Source: a virus
Virus record (IMG/VR): IMGVR_UViG_3300042937_000526
Coordinates: 1 to 44,232 of that record
Length of the DNA: 44,232 nucleotides
Direction: 5' to 3' (one strand)
Below, one piece after another: positions 15,741 through 39,505 of this stretch (position 1 is its first letter; each line of letters starts with the position of its first letter). The notes beneath the pieces were generated by a model, which saw nothing but the letters and a program-made list of their open reading frames with translations, was not told where the DNA came from and made no database searches. The position numbers were made by a program, and so were the translations under genes.

Positions 15741-16570
15741 TCGGTCGGAGGGTTAGCGAACGCATTAGCCTTGGAGATGAAACCATCCGCATCGGCAATG
15801 ATCATGTTGGCCACCTTGGTCGAGACATCGCGGAAGTTCTGACCTTCCTTGATGAGGTTCTTCGAGAGGAGGAACGCATTCGCTGCCTCAGAATGTGGCT
15901 CAAGAATCTGCTCCAGTTTCGAGAGCATTGTGTTGATGTCAAACGGCGTCACATTGACCGTCTGGCGCGTCGGAGCGGTCGGAGCGGGTGTTGGTGAGGT
16001 AGCGGAGAAGTCGGCCACCTCCTCAGGCGTATAGCGTCCTTGCGTAATGCGCGGATCGAGCATGCGAGTCGCCTTGCTGACAACCCTCGCACGGAGCATC
16101 TCAGCAGGAAACTTCTGCCACCCGCTTCCAGGCTTCAACGGAATCAAGCAAGCCTGCTTCGCGTCTTCCATCGTGAACGAAATTCGAACCTTCTTCGCAC
16201 CCTTGCTGAAGTCGGCGATGGCGGCGATTGCGTCGAATTGAATCCAGTCAACGTCCCAACCAGCATTCATCAAACCGGCGAGCATGCTCTCCGATTTCAT
16301 GGTGATTTTCCCGTCGATGAGGTGATTCTCGCGCTTCCATGAAAGCGGAGTCATACGGCTGGAAATGCATTCCAAAGCAAGGACATATCCCTGCTCAGGT
16401 TTGACGCATCCGAACATGCCGGAGTGTGCTATCCAGTCGCCAAGCTGCTTGACAGAATCAAGCGATGTGCATGCTTGGGAATAGAACTCCGTGTCAGAGC
16501 TGACCGAAGTCAGTGGTTGCGGTGGTGTCGGGGACGGTACTGCTACCGTCAGTGTGCTGTTGCTGTTCAT
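15737..16570 (-). CDS. RecT-like single-strand annealing protein
   Basis: 277 residues. After a Pro/Ser-rich N-terminus come FGCVKPEQGYVLALECISSR, DGKITMKSESMLAGLMNAGW, KKVRISFTMEDAKQA, GSGWQKFPAEMLRARVVSKA and GRYTPEEVADFS. The 'W-x-x-x-P-x-x-M-L-x-x-R-A-x-S-x-A-x-R ... Y-x-x-E-E' pattern is typical of RecT/RedB-type annealing proteins of phages. Pairing with the adjacent RecE-like nuclease makes a two-component recombination system for concatemer formation and repair. Its first 77 bases overlap the upstream HTH gene in another frame. Confidence 0.8.
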   Translation of the reverse strand: MNSNSTLTVAVPSPTPPQPLTSVSSDTEFYSQACTSLDSVKQLGDWIAHSGMFGCVKPEQGYVLALECISSRMTPLSWKRENHLIDGKITMKSESMLAGLMNAGWDVDWIQFDAIAAIADFSKGAKKVRISFTMEDAKQACLIPLKPGSGWQKFPAEMLRARVVSKATRMLDPRITQGRYTPEEVADFSATSPTPAPTAPTRQTVNVTPFDINTMLSKLEQILEPHSEAANAFLLSKNLIKEGQNFRDVSTKVANMIIADADGFISKANAFANPPTE

Positions 16571-16787
16571 TTGTATTCGCTGTCTGTTTTGGTTTTCTCG
16601 GTGCGTAGGGGTTCACGGCTCCGGTCATTGCTCGACTCTCAAGAATCGCGGCGATGTCGGCTTCCGTGAACAAAATGCGTCGGCCAATTCTCCTGTGCTG
16701 GATGCCATCGGTGCGAACGATACGCCGAAGCGTCTCGCAGCAGATTTGCAGCATCGCGGCTGTTTGTTTGGCCGTATAAACTTTCAT
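16494..16787 (-). CDS. Excisionase / MerR-type helix-turn-helix protein
   Basis: 97 residues from ATG 16787 (MKVYTAKQTAAMLQICCETL); the ATG one codon earlier is possible. Residues 4-50 are a winged HTH of the excisionase family: TAKQTAAMLQIC, then RRIVRTDGIQHRRIGRRILF and TEADIAAILES. The C-terminal half is low-complexity (Pro/Thr/Gln-rich) and lies in the overlap with the RecT-like gene. No integrase is present in the window, so it may be a regulator rather than an excisionase. Confidence 0.7.
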   Translation of the reverse strand: MKVYTAKQTAAMLQICCETLRRIVRTDGIQHRRIGRRILFTEADIAAILESRAMTGAVNPYAPRKPKQTANTNEQQQHTDGSSTVPDTTATTDFGQL

Positions 16788-16796
16788 CAAAAAGGG

Positions 16797-21201: not shown

Positions 21202-21666
21202 TTAACGAACGAACGGCGCAATCTCCAGCTCAAGCTCTCGAATGCGCGATTGCAACGCTTCGATTTCCGCAAGATTTGAACGGACAATCTCAGGCGTGAA
21301 ATCGGAGCGGAAAACGACGCATTCCCAAAGCTCTTTCAAAGTGTCTCCGTCACGAATAGAACCGACTCCGAAACTCTGTTTGACGTAGGCGACAGAACCG
21401 CTTCTCGTCGGATAAGTTGCGTCAATTTCAACGTCAATGCGCCACTCGGAATGGCGGAAGAAAACGCGGAAGCCGCGCGCGCGGAAATCCTCCGCAATCG
21501 GTTCGACAACCGCTCGAGATTGCGCGGTCCATGAGCGGTGAGGCGTCACCTTGTGAACTTTCTTTCCCAGGAACGGTGCGAGAGCTTCGCGAAGTCGCGC
21601 GGACAATTCATTCGACGCAATGGCAACGCGGTTGACGGTTTCAATGTGGAGCGGATTTGGCTTCAT
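21202..21666 (-). CDS. Hypothetical protein, 154 aa
   Basis: N-terminal helix (VNRVAIASNELSARLREALA), a basic middle (GKKVHKVTPHRSWTAQSRAV) with strand FRVFFRHSEWRIDVEIDATY, and a C-terminal coiled coil (NLAEIEALQSRIRELELEIA). The acidic-basic strand pairs could be a small nuclease-like or DNA-binding core, but no motif is convincing. Confidence 0.6.
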   Translation of the reverse strand: MKPNPLHIETVNRVAIASNELSARLREALAPFLGKKVHKVTPHRSWTAQSRAVVEPIAEDFRARGFRVFFRHSEWRIDVEIDATYPTRSGSVAYVKQSFGVGSIRDGDTLKELWECVVFRSDFTPEIVRSNLAEIEALQSRIRELELEIAPFVR

Positions 21667-21738
21667 GGATGATTTAGTTTTGAATCGGGCTTGATTACCC
21701 GCCCCATCCCACGGTTGCCCATGGGACGGCGCGAGGAA

Positions 21739-21921
21739 TCAGGCGAGGTTGAATAGCTTTCGGAAGTCCGAGTAATCGTAGCAAAGGTCGGTTGAGAAGC
21801 GGTAGACTCCAATATCCTCCCGACCGTCGGGAAGGCGCACATTGACGTATTGCCACTTCTCCCCGTCCATTTCAAACGGATCTTCGAAGGAACGGGGGCG
21901 GAGGTATTCAAGGACTTTCAT
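21739..21921 (-). CDS. Hypothetical protein, 60 aa
   Basis: From ATG 21921 (MKVLEYLRPRSFEDPFEMDG). Beta-rich: EKWQYVNVRLPDGREDIGVY. No family recognised. Its leader is a 5-bp tandem repeat that runs right up to the start codon. Confidence 0.55.
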   Translation of the reverse strand: MKVLEYLRPRSFEDPFEMDGEKWQYVNVRLPDGREDIGVYRFSTDLCYDYSDFRKLFNLA

Positions 21922-21941
21922 GGGATGGGATGGGATGGGAT
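21921..21941. repeat. Four-copy TGGGA tandem repeat at a start codon
   Basis: TGGGA is repeated four times (21921-21940); on the minus strand this reads TCCCA x4 and runs from just after the previous stop codon into the ATG of the 60-aa gene. Copy changes by slippage would alter the spacing between the two genes in 5-base steps. Confidence 0.7.
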
Positions 21942-22183
21942 TAGCGTGACAAGATTGCCGGAGTTTCGACTTCATGGATTCCTAGCAAATAGCCCTTGCC
22001 GGTCGGCACGGTCAAATACTCGCCGTTGAAAAGGGAAACGTGAACCTTGCCGGATTCGAGGGACGAATACCATTTTGCAACCGGCTCCGGCAATGCGCCG
22101 GAAACGTAGTGGGATGTTTCGTTACCCCTAGGGTAAGTGCGGCGGACTTTCGATTGCGGAGCAAGATACATGACAGGTTTCAT
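21941..22183 (-). CDS. Hypothetical protein, 80 aa
   Basis: Starts MKPVMYLAPQSKVRRTYPRG. The second half is beta-rich (KVHVSLFNGEYLTVPTGKGY). No family recognised. Its start context (ATCCCATGAAA) is the same as that of the next gene. Confidence 0.55.
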   Translation of the reverse strand: MKPVMYLAPQSKVRRTYPRGNETSHYVSGALPEPVAKWYSSLESGKVHVSLFNGEYLTVPTGKGYLLGIHEVETPAILSR

Positions 22184-22204
22184 GGGATTTTGATTTGTTG
22201 AGGG

Positions 22205-22309
22205 TTAGAGTTGAGAAGCGAAGAAAAGGAAGTAAAACGCGTAACCTAGGACAGCGTAGGCAACGCATTGGAAGAGGAAGGAAGCGAGTTTTTTAAACGC
22301 GGTTTTCAT
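22205..22309 (-). CDS. Tiny membrane protein, 34 aa
   Basis: Reads MKTAFKKLASFLFQCVAYAV then LGYAFYFLFFASQL: a basic start and one hydrophobic helix. It is preceded at 11 bases by the same 14-bp element found before the gene at 22417-22647, and both proteins begin MKT. Function unknown. Confidence 0.5.
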   Translation of the reverse strand: MKTAFKKLASFLFQCVAYAVLGYAFYFLFFASQL

Positions 22310-22316
22310 GTCGGAG

Positions 22317-22330
22317 GACAGACTAGGGTG
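22317..22330 (-). promoter_or_regulatory. 14-bp leader element, copy A
   Basis: CACCCTAGTCTGTC on the minus strand ends 7 bases before the ATG at 22309. The identical element lies at the same distance before the ATG at 22647. It contains TAGTCT, a possible -10 hexamer; no good -35 is visible for this copy. Confidence 0.5.
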
Positions 22331-22355
22331 AAGGGTGGGGAGCATGGGATTTGAC

Positions 22356-22374
22356 ACGGTGAACCGTTCACCGT
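22356..22374. promoter_or_regulatory. Perfect 9-bp inverted repeat (operator-like)
   Basis: ACGGTGAAC-C-GTTCACCGT, a perfect 19-bp palindrome around one base, in the non-coding gap 22310-22416. Size and symmetry fit a dimeric repressor site. The gap also has several shorter GTTCA/TTCATC direct repeats. Confidence 0.6.
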
Positions 22375-22416
22375 CCACGATTCACCCTGTCGGATGAACC
22401 GGGAACGATGAACGGA

Positions 22417-22647
22417 TCATCGGACAGTTTGAAACCAGCGGAAGAGAAAGCCGAACGGACCTTTGCGGTCATTGACGAACGACTGGTGACTGTTCAGTCG
22501 GACCGTCATCTGGTCAATACCCATCCCGTCGGGTCGGACTGACAGGTCATTCAGGTTGGATCGGCATGTCTGAATGCTCGCTTCGATTCGATTGAGCTTG
22601 GACCAGTCGGCGGCAGTGGGGAGGGGAGGGAATGCGTTGGTTTTCAT
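22417..22647 (-). CDS. Hypothetical protein, 76 aa, first gene of the early operon
   Basis: ATG 22647 (MKTNAFPPLPTAADWSKLNR) lies just after a good promoter; the longer frame to 22686 would begin inside the promoter and is rejected. It continues with a helix (RIEASIQTCRSNLNDLSVRP) and ends in an aromatic basic tail (FGFLFRWFQTVR). No family recognised. As the first gene transcribed leftwards it may take part in host takeover, by position only. Confidence 0.55.
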   Translation of the reverse strand: MKTNAFPPLPTAADWSKLNRIEASIQTCRSNLNDLSVRPDGMGIDQMTVRLNSHQSFVNDRKGPFGFLFRWFQTVR

Positions 22648-22654
22648 TGACTGA

Positions 22655-22668
22655 GACAGACTAGGGTG
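22655..22668 (-). promoter_or_regulatory. 14-bp leader element, copy B
   Basis: Same CACCCTAGTCTGTC as at 22317-22330, again 7 bases before an ATG followed by AAAAC. It overlaps the -10 hexamer of the promoter below. Confidence 0.55.
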
Positions 22669-22686
22669 GACAGGGGAATCAGTCAA
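22658..22686 (-). promoter_or_regulatory. Sigma70-type promoter for the early leftward operon
   Basis: TTGACT (22686-22681), a 17-base spacer, then TAGTCT (22663-22658). The expected start of transcription is about 22651, only a few bases before ATG 22647, so the first message would be nearly leaderless. Confidence 0.55.
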
Positions 22687-22737
22687 AATGTTTTTTCGTT
22701 TTTTTTCAATGGTGGGGGAAAAGTGGGCTTTTGCTGA

Positions 22738-22793
22738 GGAAAACGAGGGAAAACGAGGGGGATTTAGACAGTGTCAGGATTGGAAAACGAGGG
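22738..22793. repeat. Iteron-like GGAAAACGAGGG repeats before the terminase-small-like gene
   Basis: Three exact copies of GGAAAACGAGGG at 22738-22749, 22748-22759 and 22782-22793; a degenerate fourth (GGAAAACAAGCG) lies at 22855-22866, inside the start of the gene. Copies 1 and 2 are 10 bp apart, one helical turn. This fits a binding site for the adjacent HTH protein, e.g. a packaging or replication-start site. An A/T tract lies just before it (22681-22710). Confidence 0.6.
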
Positions 22794-22845
22794 GGGGCGA
22801 AGGCGACGTTGAACGATTCACGACAACACTCTAAGGTGACGGGAA

Positions 22846-23292
22846 ATGAGGATTGGAAAACAAGCGTGGGAAAAGGCGAAGGCGAAGTACTTCGCAGGGG
22901 AGACTTGGGAGACAATTGCAAACGACTTGCAATTGAACAAGGCGACGTTGACGAACAAGGCCAGCATAGAAGGCATCACGAAAGTTAAGCGAGAGGCGAA
23001 GGCAATTTCCCCTAAAGATAATGTTTCCCTAGAAAGCCTGTCCGCTTTGGTCCGTTCGAAACTCGCACAGGATGCAGCCACCACGCTTGAACGCATCGAC
23101 AGCTATGCATTGGACGGAATCAAAGACGAATCCACACGGGAGCAGATCCTAGGAAGCGTGGCGAAGAGGTCGGCTCTAGTGTTCGGCTGGAGTGAACAAG
23201 GTGAACAAGCGAGCGTGTCCATTAATCTGCTCGGCTCCATGCCAGACAGAAGTCCGGTTGAAGTCATCGTCAACGAACCATCGGACAAGTAA
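22846..23292 (+). CDS. Terminase small subunit-like HTH protein
   Basis: 148 residues. The N-terminus is an HTH of the kind used by small terminases: WEKAKAKYFAGETWETIAND then LQLNKATLTNKASIEGITKV. The middle is helical (SALVRSKLAQDAATTLERID), which would fit the oligomerisation part, and the C-terminus is acidic and Pro-containing. Role: recognition of phage DNA for packaging. Supporting context is the iteron-like repeat upstream; against it, the large subunit lies 15 kb away on the other strand. A general transcription regulator is the alternative. Confidence 0.58.
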   Translation: MRIGKQAWEKAKAKYFAGETWETIANDLQLNKATLTNKASIEGITKVKREAKAISPKDNVSLESLSALVRSKLAQDAATTLERIDSYALDGIKDESTREQILGSVAKRSALVFGWSEQGEQASVSINLLGSMPDRSPVEVIVNEPSDK

Positions 23293-23368
23293 ACATAACA
23301 CGTATTGTGCAACGCAAGCGGACTGATAGTTAGGATTAGTTTTACTTATGGCACAAAAGAATTGTTTT

Positions 23369-23444
23369 CCTAGGGGCTGGCACGGACGGTGACGCCTAGG
23401 GGGCGGCCCCCTTTTGGGGGTGGGCTTCGTTTACGATACCCCCC
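23369..23444. other. GC-rich palindromic block, possible cos site or structure
   Basis: CCTAGGGG occurs at 23369-23376 and again at 23395-23402. It is followed by competing stems: GGGGG (23399-23403) with CCCCC (23407-23411), or CCCCC with GGGGG (23416-23420) across TTTT. A further C6 run lies at 23439-23444. No T-run follows, so it is not a standard terminator. The block sits in the 177-base gap after the terminase-small-like gene. Confidence 0.45.
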
Positions 23445-23469
23445 TCAAAAATTTTCCGACCTTTTGACC

Positions 23470-23985
23470 ATGATAAATAAAATCAAAATCGGTCAAACAG
23501 TTTCTTTATCCTATGCAGAACGTAAGCTCGCTCATTTTTTGGCGAAGCATAGGAACGGGAACAATCGTTCGTTCAACAAGGTGAATTTGAAGATCAGTTC
23601 GGAGGACGCGCATACGGTTGATTTGGAGGGGATGTGTGGCGAGATAGCGTTCTGTAAGCTGTTCAATGTGTATCCTGATTTGGATACGGAGCGTGAGCCG
23701 CCGCATCCGCTTTATGACTGTGTGCTATCGAATGGGATGAGGGTGGATGTGAAGACGACGAAGTACGAGAATGGGAAGTTGTTGGTGGATGCGCGTAAGG
23801 GTAAGAAGACGGATGGCGTGGATTTCTATGTGTTGATGACTGGAAGTTTCCCTGGGCCGTATGCGTTCAAGGGATTCATTGCGAAGACGAAGATCATCAG
23901 GCCGGAGAGGATTGGCGAACTTTGCGGGTACAAGAGTTACATTGCGGATCAGCGGGAATTGAGTGAGTCCGCTAAATCTGATTGA
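23470..23985 (+). CDS. PD-(D/E)XK endonuclease-like phage protein
   Basis: 171 residues from ATG 23470 (MINKIKIGQTVSLSYAERKL); the longer frame runs back through the GC-rich block. Motifs: MCGEIAFCKLF (Glu about 57), YDCVLSNGMRVDVKTTKYEN with D and DVK, and DFYVLMTGSFPGPYAFKGFI. This order (GE-x-A ... D ... V-D-x-K-T) is that of small restriction-endonuclease-fold proteins common in phages. It may degrade host DNA or take part in packaging; it lies between small terminase and capsid. Confidence 0.68.
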   Translation: MINKIKIGQTVSLSYAERKLAHFLAKHRNGNNRSFNKVNLKISSEDAHTVDLEGMCGEIAFCKLFNVYPDLDTEREPPHPLYDCVLSNGMRVDVKTTKYENGKLLVDARKGKKTDGVDFYVLMTGSFPGPYAFKGFIAKTKIIRPERIGELCGYKSYIADQRELSESAKSD

Positions 23986-24093
23986 CTTAGTAGGGATTCG
24001 TATGCGTCAGTGCGTGTAACGACCTTAAGCGAGGTGGTGGTTTGGTCAGCCACTGCAAACTGTCTAAGCGGCGATGACGCTCCGCATTGGTGA

Positions 24094-24135
24094 GGTAGGA
24101 TAATCATCCACTGTGTGGTGGATAGATGGCCTACC
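24094..24135. other. Nested hairpin in the capsid-gene leader
   Basis: Outer stem GGTAGG (24094-24099) with CCTACC (24130-24135); inner stem ATCCAC (24106-24111) with GTGGAT (24118-24123). It lies in the 186-base leader before the major capsid candidate. It could stabilise or regulate the late message. Confidence 0.5.
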
Positions 24136-24171
24136 ATAACGCAGATAACGTCGGTTTTAATTTTACTCATT

Positions 24172-25419
24172 ATGGCTTGTCCTAATGTTTTCAATGCGTT
24201 CGCCGTGGCGACTGAGTCGCTCGCGCAGGACGTTTACAAGCGCGCCTCGTATCGTTCGATGTGGTTGAACCTCATTGAGCGTGGCGAGTATCCTCAAGGT
24301 ACTGGTCTGACCCAGACCTCGTTCACTACCACTTCGATTGAGCCGACTGCGGCTGAGGAGTGGTCGGCCATCACCCTCGCGTCCGGCAACCCCGGCGATA
24401 ACGGTGGTGCTTGCGATGTCACCTACAATGACGTTCCGGTTGGATACAACGCTGTTACTTGGGGGCCTGAGCGTTTTGCGCTGAAAGGTCCGCTCTTGTG
24501 TAAGGATGATCTGACCTTTGATCATCGAGTTGAGGCGTTCTTGCGTGTGTACTTGGAGAAGTTGTCCATTCGCGCACAGCGTTCGTGGGAGACTCGCTAC
24601 CAGAACATGTTTGCCAAGTACGCCATCAAGGCGGTGGCCGACTCGTCCTTTACGCAGGTGGAGACGATTCCGTCTGGTGTGAATGAGTTGCCTTGGATTC
24701 AGACTGGTTCGGCTGGTCAGGCTTTGAACCAGGCTACCTCCGAGCTGACGCAGGAAATGCTCGATGTCGCTGCTGCTACGTTGATTCGTAATGGCGCGAC
24801 GAATCCTGATAGTTCGGGGTTCATCAGCTTCTCTAGCGACGGTCCGGTGTTCCCGCTCTACATCGGCATGGAGGCCAGCCAGCGTATTGCTCAGAACAAT
24901 GCTGCGCTGCGCGAGGATCTGCGGTTCGCTGACATGGGTTCTGGTGCCGGTGCTGAGCTGCTCCGTCGAATTGGCGCGAATCGGGTCATCAAGAACTTCC
25001 GCCATATCCCGAATCTGTTCCCGCCCCGCTTCAGCTATGCTGGCGGCAAGTACACGCTCATCCAGCCGTTCACCAGCACCTCCGGCACTAAGGGTACTGT
25101 GTTCAGCGTCAACCCGAGCTGGACGACCGCCTTGTACGAGGGTGCGTTCGTGCCGACTCCGTACGTCATCAAGAGCCATATCGTTCGCCCTGTGAACCGT
25201 GTTGGCGACTTGAGCTGGCAACCGACCAACTACATGGGCGAGTGGCAGTGGGTGACTGGTGCCTACAAGCTCGATGTGGATTGCGCCGATCCTCTGGAGA
25301 AGAAGGGTCAGCACTACGCTGAGTTCGTTCATGCTGTGGAGCCAGTGTTCACGAACCAGGGCATGACGATCATCTTCCGTCGTTGCACCGGCGCACTCAC
25401 TCAGATTATCTGCTCGTAA
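24172..25419 (+). CDS. Major capsid protein (candidate)
   Basis: 415 residues from ATG 24172 (MACPNVFNAFAVATESLAQD); an in-frame GTG at 24115 lies in the hairpin and is rejected. Features that fit a HK97-fold capsid protein are a helical N-arm (LAQDVYKRASYRSMWLNLIE), a long helix DHRVEAFLRVYLEKLSIRAQ, beta-rich middle and a C-terminal strand pair (MTIIFRRCTGALTQIIC). Very regular codon use, a long structured leader and a strong terminator directly after it indicate high expression. Ca. 415 aa is a usual length. I cannot prove the fold from sequence alone. Confidence 0.72.
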   Translation: MACPNVFNAFAVATESLAQDVYKRASYRSMWLNLIERGEYPQGTGLTQTSFTTTSIEPTAAEEWSAITLASGNPGDNGGACDVTYNDVPVGYNAVTWGPERFALKGPLLCKDDLTFDHRVEAFLRVYLEKLSIRAQRSWETRYQNMFAKYAIKAVADSSFTQVETIPSGVNELPWIQTGSAGQALNQATSELTQEMLDVAAATLIRNGATNPDSSGFISFSSDGPVFPLYIGMEASQRIAQNNAALREDLRFADMGSGAGAELLRRIGANRVIKNFRHIPNLFPPRFSYAGGKYTLIQPFTSTSGTKGTVFSVNPSWTTALYEGAFVPTPYVIKSHIVRPVNRVGDLSWQPTNYMGEWQWVTGAYKLDVDCADPLEKKGQHYAEFVHAVEPVFTNQGMTIIFRRCTGALTQIICS

Positions 25420-37221: not shown

Positions 37222-37826
37222 GGTCGTTTTTTCCAGCAGTGAGCTGGCAAGTTTGCGTTCTCTGTAGCGTCCGTAAATTTATGGAGCGTTTCAATGGGAA
37301 ACCACACCATGCTTCTGATGAAGCAACCGCAAAATTCACAGCTTTGAAGCTGTTCGTCTAGTGGCGTTGTTCCGTGTTGAGAAAGTGTTCTGACAGCATC
37401 CTTAAGGACGCGAGCATTGCATCCGGTGCATCCGAGCGGCTTCCGGTTGAACTGACATCCAGCACAGATACTCGCCCTTCGAATCGCTTCTGCTTGATCC
37501 ACCTTGCCACCACCAACAGTGAGTCCATGAAGCAAACTCATGCTGAATCGGATAACGTCTCCAATCTGAAGAGATTTCAAACCTGCTGGCTTAGGAATCT
37601 CAACTTCGTCGTAGGAACAATCGGCACCGTTGCGACACTGATACTCGGTGATTAAAGTGTCGAGGTTGGCTGGAACCTTAACCGCGTTCGCCGTGTAATG
37701 GTTGCGGACAAACTCGCGCAACTGCGACAATGAACCTGCCGGTATCTCGATGCCGGTTTCAGGAACTCGATAGTTCCATCCGCCAGGAATGACATTGTGT
37801 TCGTTGAGGATCTTGTAGCCGCTCAT
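37206..37826 (-). CDS. Cys-rich, probably zinc-binding protein between terminase and portal
   Basis: 206 residues from ATG 37826 (MSGYKILNEHNVIPGGWNYR), which overlaps the terminase stop; the longer frame is rejected. About residues 120-206 have clustered Cys: ASICAGCQFNRKPLGCTGC, then LQSCEFCGCFIRSM and a late HCWKKRPC, at least eight Cys in CxxC pairs, i.e. two or more zinc knuckles. The N-terminal part is beta-rich. Conserved between terminase and portal in several environmental phages as far as I recall; function unknown. Confidence 0.65.
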   Translation of the reverse strand: MSGYKILNEHNVIPGGWNYRVPETGIEIPAGSLSQLREFVRNHYTANAVKVPANLDTLITEYQCRNGADCSYDEVEIPKPAGLKSLQIGDVIRFSMSLLHGLTVGGGKVDQAEAIRRASICAGCQFNRKPLGCTGCNARVLKDAVRTLSQHGTTPLDEQLQSCEFCGCFIRSMVWFPIETLHKFTDATENANLPAHCWKKRPCTET

Positions 37827-39505
37827 ATTTCTGCGTCGTAGTAAATTGAGTCTGCGTCTCTCACCAGCTTTTCCCATACCTTATCAGATTTTGTTGCTCG
37901 CGGTTCAAATGAGGCGGTTTTACGCACCAGATCAAGCAAGACTACAGCAGCGTCTGCTAAGTCAGGCGATTTACCAGTCCGCTGCTTCATCACGGTCTTC
38001 GATTCGACGGATATCTTCCGCTTGGAATCGTCGAACATTCGCGCACAGAACTCCTGCAAAGTCTCGATGTCCATGCCGCCGACCCGCTCCTCGACAACCC
38101 ATTTACGCATTGAAAACCAAAGTTCCGTCACCTTGCGGTCGTAAGCCTCATTGCATGGCCTACTATCTTCGTCGCTGACCGGAATAGTCGATGGAGAGCC
38201 GCCGAACTCGACGCGATGAACCACGCCCCATTCACGGGTCAGAATGTCCGCCAGACCGCCGCCTTCTCCGCTTGAATCAAGAGCGAACTTGTCCGGTGGA
38301 ACGCCGCGCTTGTTGCATTCCTCTTTAACTCGATTGGCTATCTGGTAATGAACCGGCTCAGTAAGCTGAGCGTTAGGCGATATCTGGATGATGTCCTGAA
38401 AGAGAATGCTCAGCTTGTCGTTAGCGGTGCCGACCTTGGCAAAGCGAAGGACGCATCTGTCACCTCCAAAGCCTGGGTCGAGAGCAGCAACGATCTGGAC
38501 GTTCGTAGTAAACACCAAATTTTTTGTAGGTGTGTGCGTCTCGATCAGCGACTCGGACAACACCGTCTTGACCATTCCGTCAGGACTCCAGAATCCGCGT
38601 GTGTACTTCCAGAACGTAGGACTCTGCTCGCCCTCATGGCGCATCGCCGACAAGACCTGATCGTGGGTGATGAGGTACGGATACTTCGTTCGACCCTCGC
38701 TGATGTTCGGCGACTTCATGCCGTCAAAACGTCGGCAGATGCCACGTTCTGTCAGCCAGTGCTGGTCCTCAATCGTAACGCTGCGCCACCCTTTTGCCGG
38801 TGTGCAGAATCTGCCGTGCGGATCGAACTTCGATGCCGGATTGCCGATGACGAGCATCTTGAACTCGCGGCAACCCTTGGAGAGGTTTGTACAAGCCTCG
38901 AACGCTGCTTCAGGCGTATCCGTCGCTTCGTCGATGATGACCATCACTCGCTCGGCGTGAATACCCTGAATGTTGGCCACTGCCTTCGAAGTGTTGCCTT
39001 CAGCGACGGCGATAGCCGAAATGGAATGTCGGTCGTCACCTTTAATAGCCTGTAACGTCATCTTCGAATCGACCATGTTGCCGGGGAATCCTGGCGATTT
39101 CCGAACAAGATCCTGAAGATTTGCCCACATACGCTTTCGGATCATTTTTGCGGTCGTCGATGTCAGGACAACCGTTGACTTGGCAGGGTTGGCTAACCAC
39201 CAGACCGCCGCAAAAAGCGTTGCGCCGAAGGTCTTTCCGCTCGCTCCGCATCCTGCCCATCCAACGTAGTCATGCTCGCAGAGGTCTTCTACTTGATTAT
39301 CAAGCCACGGATTCCAACTCATCTTCGGCCAAAGCATTTTCGTCGCATTGTGAAAATGTTCGACAGTGCCAAGTCCGCCCTCGTTTGGTTGGAGTCGATT
39401 GCGGAAAGCGTACAGCTCCAATTCAAGATCGGGAATTTTGACGGGCGAACGAATCCCGTACTTGTGGTTTATGAGCGGTTGCTCTTGGATGTTTTGTTCT
39501 TGCAC
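37823..39505 (-). CDS. terL: Terminase large subunit
   Basis: 560 residues. ATPase: Walker A GCGASGKT (85-92), Walker B MVIIDEAT (188-195), coupling motif LVIGNPAS (218-225). Nuclease (RNase H-like): first Asp in VAALDPGFGGDR (D343), second acidic site FALDSSGEGGG (D410), and last KSPDLADAAVV (D515/D518). It cuts and pumps DNA into the prohead through the portal. It is the first gene of this leftward block; 34 bases separate it from the divergent fibre genes. Confidence 0.9.
   Translation of the reverse strand: MQEQNIQEQPLINHKYGIRSPVKIPDLELELYAFRNRLQPNEGGLGTVEHFHNATKMLWPKMSWNPWLDNQVEDLCEHDYVGWAGCGASGKTFGATLFAAVWWLANPAKSTVVLTSTTAKMIRKRMWANLQDLVRKSPGFPGNMVDSKMTLQAIKGDDRHSISAIAVAEGNTSKAVANIQGIHAERVMVIIDEATDTPEAAFEACTNLSKGCREFKMLVIGNPASKFDPHGRFCTPAKGWRSVTIEDQHWLTERGICRRFDGMKSPNISEGRTKYPYLITHDQVLSAMRHEGEQSPTFWKYTRGFWSPDGMVKTVLSESLIETHTPTKNLVFTTNVQIVAALDPGFGGDRCVLRFAKVGTANDKLSILFQDIIQISPNAQLTEPVHYQIANRVKEECNKRGVPPDKFALDSSGEGGGLADILTREWGVVHRVEFGGSPSTIPVSDEDSRPCNEAYDRKVTELWFSMRKWVVEERVGGMDIETLQEFCARMFDDSKRKISVESKTVMKQRTGKSPDLADAAVVLLDLVRKTASFEPRATKSDKVWEKLVRDADSIYYDAEI

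Follow-up and report, generated by a model that had tools for sequence, protein, structure and literature searches.

Organization of the locus

The window, i.e., the whole stretch of DNA that was analyzed, is an entire IMG/VR virus record of 44,232 bp from an uncultured phage. This is a tailed phage, for which a PHROG scan of the window ORFs revealed genes for TerL (the terminase large subunit), RecE/RecT-like proteins, and primase/helicase. The segment 22649-22845 is a divergent control region: the first leftward ORF has its ATG at 22647, the gene of an HTH protein starts at 22846 on the opposite strand, and the divergence point marked in an earlier note on this DNA is thus where it was placed. 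The features are listed in Table 1. The gene that follows the HTH gene (23389-23985) matches DUF5843 (PF19161, E 1e-7) and phrog_18407.

Table 1. Features of the divergent control region and related genes in the window
Feature	Positions	Strand	Remarks
Excisionase-like HTH_17 protein, 98 aa, candidate repeat binder	16494..16790	-	PHROG E 1e-7; PF12728 E 3.4e-10
First leftward ORF	22417..22647	-	begins immediately past the leftward promoter
Leftward -10, TAGTCT	22658..22663	-	pattern kept in relatives
Leftward -35, TTGACT	22681..22686	-	17 bp from the -10
A/T tract	22687..22710		directly behind the leftward -35; A/T-rich there in relatives too
Looser copy, GGGGAAAAGTGG	22715..22726	+	GGAAAA core 59 nt from the leftward -10
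GGAAAACGAGGG, copy 1	22738..22749	+	exact; 80 nt from the leftward -10, a position kept in relatives
GGAAAACGAGGG, copy 2	22748..22759	+	exact; one helical turn on; 2-nt overlap with copy 1
GGAAAACGAGGG, copy 3	22782..22793	+	exact; 34 nt on; position not common to relatives
HTH-type-linked DNA, candidate HTH-protein site (operator and/or pac)	22800..22845	+	core TTGAACGATTCACGA at 22809-22823
Rightward -35, TTGAAC	22809..22814	+	
Rightward -10, TAAGGT	22832..22837	+	17 bp from the -35; 8 nt before the HTH ATG
HTH gene, 148 aa, probable small terminase	22846..23292	+	
Second AAGGCGACGTTGA	22939..22951	+	within recognition-helix codons
TerL	37823..39505	-	PHROG E 3e-22; ~15 kb from the HTH gene

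Related loci

In the searches for related loci, the best 80 of 183, 206, 236, and 189 confirmed stretches were kept; 334 sequences were scanned and gave 248 usable HTH genes, which were reduced to 102 distinct ones having 120 bp or more of upstream DNA. A leftward promoter was recognized in 74 of these 102 loci and not in the other 28. It should be noted that the 102 loci share ancestry, and the fixed spacing and coupled change described below are partly expected of linked, related DNA. Other searches gave no relatives: 20 kb of the window had no match in a search of a phage collection for near DNA, the HTH protein and the protein encoded at 24115-25419 had none in protein searches against phages, and the 21 stretches returned by a pattern scan of GTDB contigs did not encode a relative of the HTH protein. 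Searches of the open-licence literature showed no report on the present phage group. One relative with a single HTH match, G045 (IMGVR_UViG_3300021962_000056), has 92,531 bp, approximately twice the usual genome size, and is perhaps a dimer assembly or a hybrid.

Direct repeats in the window

The control region carries three exact copies of GGAAAACGAGGG, starting at 22738, 22748, and 22782, and the first two are 10 bp apart, as the earlier note described. This exceeds chance: a cluster of this kind (any 12-mer, three exact occurrences in 60 bp) was found in none of 2000 dinucleotide shuffles of 22649-22845 and in two of 2000 shuffles of 22301-22900. The next best matches have two mismatches, and the whole window contains eight matches with two or fewer mismatches, compared to 4.39 expected; therefore, the degenerate copy that had been added to the set, which falls within the HTH coding sequence (22855-22866), does not exceed chance and is not significant alone. 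The A/T tract reported beside the repeats is present (~22687-22710). The spacings of the GGAAAA cores in the window, including that of the looser copy, are 21, 10, and 34.

Between the repeats, at 22767-22775, lies a GACAGTGTC element, a further possible operator. The pattern GACAG.GTC has 11 occurrences in eight of 49 distinct upstream regions, compared to one in 444 kb elsewhere, and is sometimes paired at a distance of ~22 bp.

Fixed spacing between the repeats and the leftward promoter in relatives

A consensus sigma-70 scan of 21600-24300 returned no promoter, and both promoters in Table 1 were found by eye and comparison. From the usual distance to the -10, leftward transcription is predicted to start ~4 nt before the ATG, and the A/T tract behind the -35 may be UP-element-like. 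The strict leftward pattern is present in 65 of the 102 distinct relatives (shuffle mean 0.09, largest 1); these counts are descriptive and not a proof, because the list of -10 hexamers was picked after inspection of the data.

Conservation of the repeats in relatives, a check proposed in the earlier note, is evident in many loci. The shorter word GGAAAACGAG occurs 25 times in forward and never in reverse orientation in 49 distinct 200-bp upstream regions (16 of the 49 carry it), and elsewhere in the same contigs 0 times forward and twice reverse over 444 kb. Among 120 GGAAAA sites in the 74 loci with a recognized leftward promoter, 99 are located 57-60, 68-70, 79-82, or 89-92 nt from the leftward -10, i.e., at positions that step by about one or two helical turns; the 57-60 position accounts for 24 of the 120. 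A GGAAAA site occupies the 79-82 position in most segments (52 of 73 distinct ones) and sequence classes (10 of 11), and the DNA between it and the -10 has a mean identity of just 51%. In one locus (L004), four repeats follow each other at 10, 11, and 10. When measured from the HTH start, the same GGAAAA sites are scattered over ~100 bp, from -148 to -47, plus one at -22. The repeats are also shared across HTH types: GGAAAAC[GT] is found in 36 of 55 sequences that represent eight of ten HTH types, and GGAAAACGAG in 16 of 55 that represent six of ten.

Judging from these patterns, the GGAAAA repeats probably belong with the leftward (early) promoter and not with the HTH gene. Because their distance to the HTH gene varies and they span most HTH types, the idea that the HTH protein has its site in GGAAAACGAGGG is probably incorrect; what the data support at the divergence point is a regulatory region that probably binds protein.

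Some relatives lack GGAAAACG, and in these an alternative cassette with direct repeats of the TGTNGTGGTGTC type replaces GGAAAACGAGGG (L015, L039, L042, L049, L063, L068, L075, and L080).

Downstream of the leftward promoter, the leftward leader CACCCTAGTCTGTC recurs at 22317-22330, close to a perfect 19-bp palindrome, ACGGTGAACCGTTCACCGT (22356-22374). In relatives, e.g., L008, an ORF for a small membrane peptide directly follows the promoter; in the window, an 89-aa-frame ORF is seemingly inserted between the main promoter and this ORF.

Possible binders of the repeats

The GGAAAACGAGGG copies would serve the leftward promoter as binding sites arranged as direct repeats in helical phase, centered at about -70 to -103 relative to the predicted leftward start except for one more distant copy. 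They would be occupied by a direct-repeat-binding protein, for which the excisionase-like HTH_17 protein is one candidate. Its gene lies ~6 kb to the left of the repeats, and the protein is encoded in 20 of 21 contigs, including the window; the contig in which it was missed has just 5.2 kb on that side. However, no covariation of this protein with the repeats was seen in the 21 contigs, and it is nearly unchanged between G033, in which GGGGAAAA is present, and G037, which has the other cassette; therefore, this assignment is a guess. A search for any protein that co-varies with the repeat cassette gave no candidate among the 21 contigs, of which four have the other cassette and one (G007) was left unclassified; most of the ORFs compared were spurious.

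The latter result would be expected if the repeats acted through a host factor or through DNA shape alone, strengthening the leftward promoter with no phage protein involved, and the A-rich blocks behind the leftward promoter at turn-like steps are consistent with that. We consider this explanation unlikely, albeit not to be dismissed lightly, given that the search was coarse and that shape does not explain the conserved CGAGGG part of many copies.

DNA before the HTH gene changes together with the HTH domain

The rightward -10 is only 8 nt from the ATG, such that the transcript would be nearly leaderless. The rightward pattern is found in 66 of the 102 relatives (shuffle mean 0.24, largest 2) and was missed in 36, in several cases through the choice of a downstream start codon.

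The C-terminal part of the HTH protein is nearly invariant in the family, and the N-terminal HTH falls into ten clusters. Comparing HTH type with upstream DNA for 55 of the 57 distinct proteins, we found that the ~45 bp before the HTH gene, promoter included, co-vary with the HTH domain. HTH-domain identity is strongly correlated with the last 45 bp upstream of the start codon (Mantel r 0.84, 0 of 499 permutations, relatedness uncorrected), and the correlation falls to 0.16-0.23 for the next three upstream segments. This DNA also tracks the recognition helix. The pattern TACCTNG-N5-CAA[GA]GTA is present in all 27 sequences of two HTH types and in none of the other 28, whereas TTGAACGATTCACGA is present in nine of ten sequences of the window's HTH type and in none of the other 45. 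Where two proteins share the recognition helix and have diverged in helices 1-2, the identity of their sites is 0.74 (49 pairs, from few sequences), compared to 0.36 where both parts differ (3087 pairs); no pair at the set cut-offs showed the reciprocal combination, in which helices 1-2 agree and the recognition helix does not. L015 shares with the window the residues W8 to N31, yet has another recognition helix and the site of another type. It should be noted that this coupling is circumstantial, because adjacent DNA may travel together with the HTH-coding sequence without being bound.

Taken with the spacing of the repeats, these data lead us to favor, with moderate confidence, a division of the control region in which the phased repeats serve the leftward promoter and, separately, the HTH protein, most likely a small terminase, recognizes the ~45 bp that overlap its own promoter. 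Binding there would result in autoregulation, in whichever direction, and would probably mark the packaging-start site. The map is corrected accordingly, with the conspicuous repeats assigned to the early promoter and the HTH protein given a likely site that adjoins them. The suggestion that this protein has a site at its own gene remains plausible for the ~45 bp before the start, but not for GGAAAACGAGGG.

Identity of the HTH protein

The earlier label "terminase-small-like" is only partly sustained: the window protein has no database match that supports it at default cut-offs, whereas PHROG small-terminase families weakly match up to nine of 24 relatives (best E 4.2e-4). Structure models of the HTH protein have a mean pLDDT of 60.8 and 63.8 and are poor beyond the HTH. 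The N-terminal HTH itself is present (helices 5-16, 21-28, and 32-42, pLDDT ~80-87), followed by helices 62-86 and 95-112 at pLDDT ~59-68 and by residues 113-148 below 50. Comparison of the models to the PDB gave no match at E <= 0.001; the top eight Foldseek rows are chains of 2AO9 (E 0.4-0.9), which is treated as a phage small terminase in the pertinent passages of PMC4737164 and PMC11331095. An hhalign comparison to the phiCD27 TerS aligned 32 HTH columns at a probability of 2.9%. Small terminases are described, in the part of PMC9611059 that deals with their layout, as having an HTH, two long helices, and a short C-terminal segment, and the modeled layout of the HTH protein fits this. No other small-terminase candidate was recognized beside TerL among the ORFs scanned, and the annotated regions of phiM5 and ctjtQ328 contain no annotated small terminase. 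The assignment as a small terminase is the most likely one, although weak.

Alternatively, the protein could be a dedicated transcriptional autoregulator and no small terminase, the promoter-proximal DNA being merely its operator. Several types have a dyad across the promoter, e.g., TACCTTG-N5-CAAGGTA, as an operator might; the HTH gene is distant from TerL; and the model is matched best by general HTH domains, over residues 1-55 only (best Z 6.4, rmsd 1.4, 44 aligned). We nevertheless hold this to be improbable, in view of the layout, the weak small-terminase matches in relatives, the Foldseek rows (for all their high E values), and the lack of another candidate beside TerL. Furthermore, the HTH-linked site is single-copy at two or fewer mismatches in 17 contigs, some of them partial, i.e., a second site is absent, which argues against a wide regulon.

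Packaging and replication

The packaging-site idea of the earlier note finds support for DNA a few tens of base pairs beyond the repeats, as a candidate, but not for the repeats themselves. The HTH-linked DNA overlaps the rightward -35 and -10 and reaches the ATG, which is the placement of an SPP1-type pac. GGAAAACGAGGG could in principle also be part of a packaging site, either bound by the small terminase or located in the region cleaved by TerL, analogous to conserved cosN/cosQ beside a variable cosB. In the SPP1 pac, direct repeats are arranged in sets that span the terminase promoters and the gene start, according to the account in PMC4737164, and independence from HTH type is what one would expect of a cleavage region. 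In addition, 27 distinct left contig ends were counted over the 1.9 kb upstream, and seven of them fall at -48 to +132 of the approximate HTH start; however, this excess is weak and confounded evidence, as the DNA may physically end there or assemblies may break at a mosaic border. The distance of the repeats is free with respect to the HTH-linked site and fixed with respect to the leftward promoter, and in G003, G034, and G037, which carry the other cassette, TerL is still 93.5-93.7% identical to that of the window, making a packaging role of the repeats very unlikely.

The earlier note also mentioned replication origins, and phased direct repeats beside an A/T tract, replaced in some relatives by other direct repeats at the same place, would be compatible with origin iterons bound by an initiator that opens the adjoining tract. 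The evidence is mostly contrary. An initiator was not recognized among the 50 window ORFs scanned with PHROGs, and there is no DnaA box in the window. The GC-skew minimum lies 3-8 kb to the left of the HTH start in all 10 near-complete records, assuming a circular map, and the maximum lies 4-5.6 kb to the right in nine of the 10, i.e., both extrema are kilobases away. A circular map is suggested by 127-nt end repeats in two of 21 records. The A/T tract and the spacing are better read as parts of a promoter, and the origin interpretation is thus unsupported and, in our opinion, distinctly unlikely.

Comparison with known systems

In SPP1, pac overlaps the promoters, the start, and the HTH-coding part of the small-terminase gene (as outlined in PMC6316719), and in SPP1/SF6 the terminase (gp1) lowers its own transcription (from the section of PMC4737164 on these phages). 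The HTH-linked DNA likewise overlaps the promoter of the HTH gene, and since the HTH protein looks like a small terminase, it resembles this pac/promoter arrangement. The differences are that the HTH gene is far from TerL here, that the rightward promoter and start are nearly leaderless, and that about ten DNA types are coupled to the HTH domain. Covariation has a precedent in lambda, 21, and N15, where cosB sites and TerS recognition helices differ together among relatives (according to the corresponding part of PMC4669245), similarly to the recognition helix and candidate site here. Those are, however, cos phages with known cohesive ends, and here there are many more types.

For the repeats, the closest parallel is Apl of phage 186, an excisionase-type regulator whose operators, direct repeats spaced by one helical turn, lie between the main early promoters (described in the Apl portion of PMC7498355). 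The repeats at 22738 and 22748 are likewise 10 bp apart, and the present phage, like 186, encodes an excisionase-like protein. Unlike in 186, where the promoters converge, they diverge here; Apl requires three adjacent operators, whereas the window has a single pair at 10 bp, plus looser copies. Because of the GGAAAA spacings and the shortfall from three adjacent operators, we do not class the array as Apl-type. No integrase was found among the 50 ORFs scanned.

A possible specificity cassette

More tentatively, the small-terminase HTH and the promoter-overlapping DNA may be exchanged as a single specificity cassette of ~200 bp, in at least 10 versions, beside the conserved array of the early promoter; we put this forward as possible rather than probable. 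If true, a single recombination step would switch the packaging identity of a phage and could thereby let it evade packaging parasites or cross-packaging. Recognition helices and promoter-proximal sites are paired in 102 distinct natural loci, which constitute a data set for an HTH-to-DNA specificity code, as well as material on why phages diversify packaging or autoregulatory specificity.

Elements within the HTH coding sequence

The repetition of AAGGCGACGTTGA described in the earlier note is exact (22800-22812 and 22939-22951), and the upstream copy overlaps the rightward -35. Words shared by the upstream site and the gene were considered as a general second binding site and rejected: the mean longest match was 7.67, compared to 7.0 for non-cognate pairs. 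The HTH coding sequence also contains, at 22913-22935, an inverted repeat with 9-bp arms and a 5-bp spacer.
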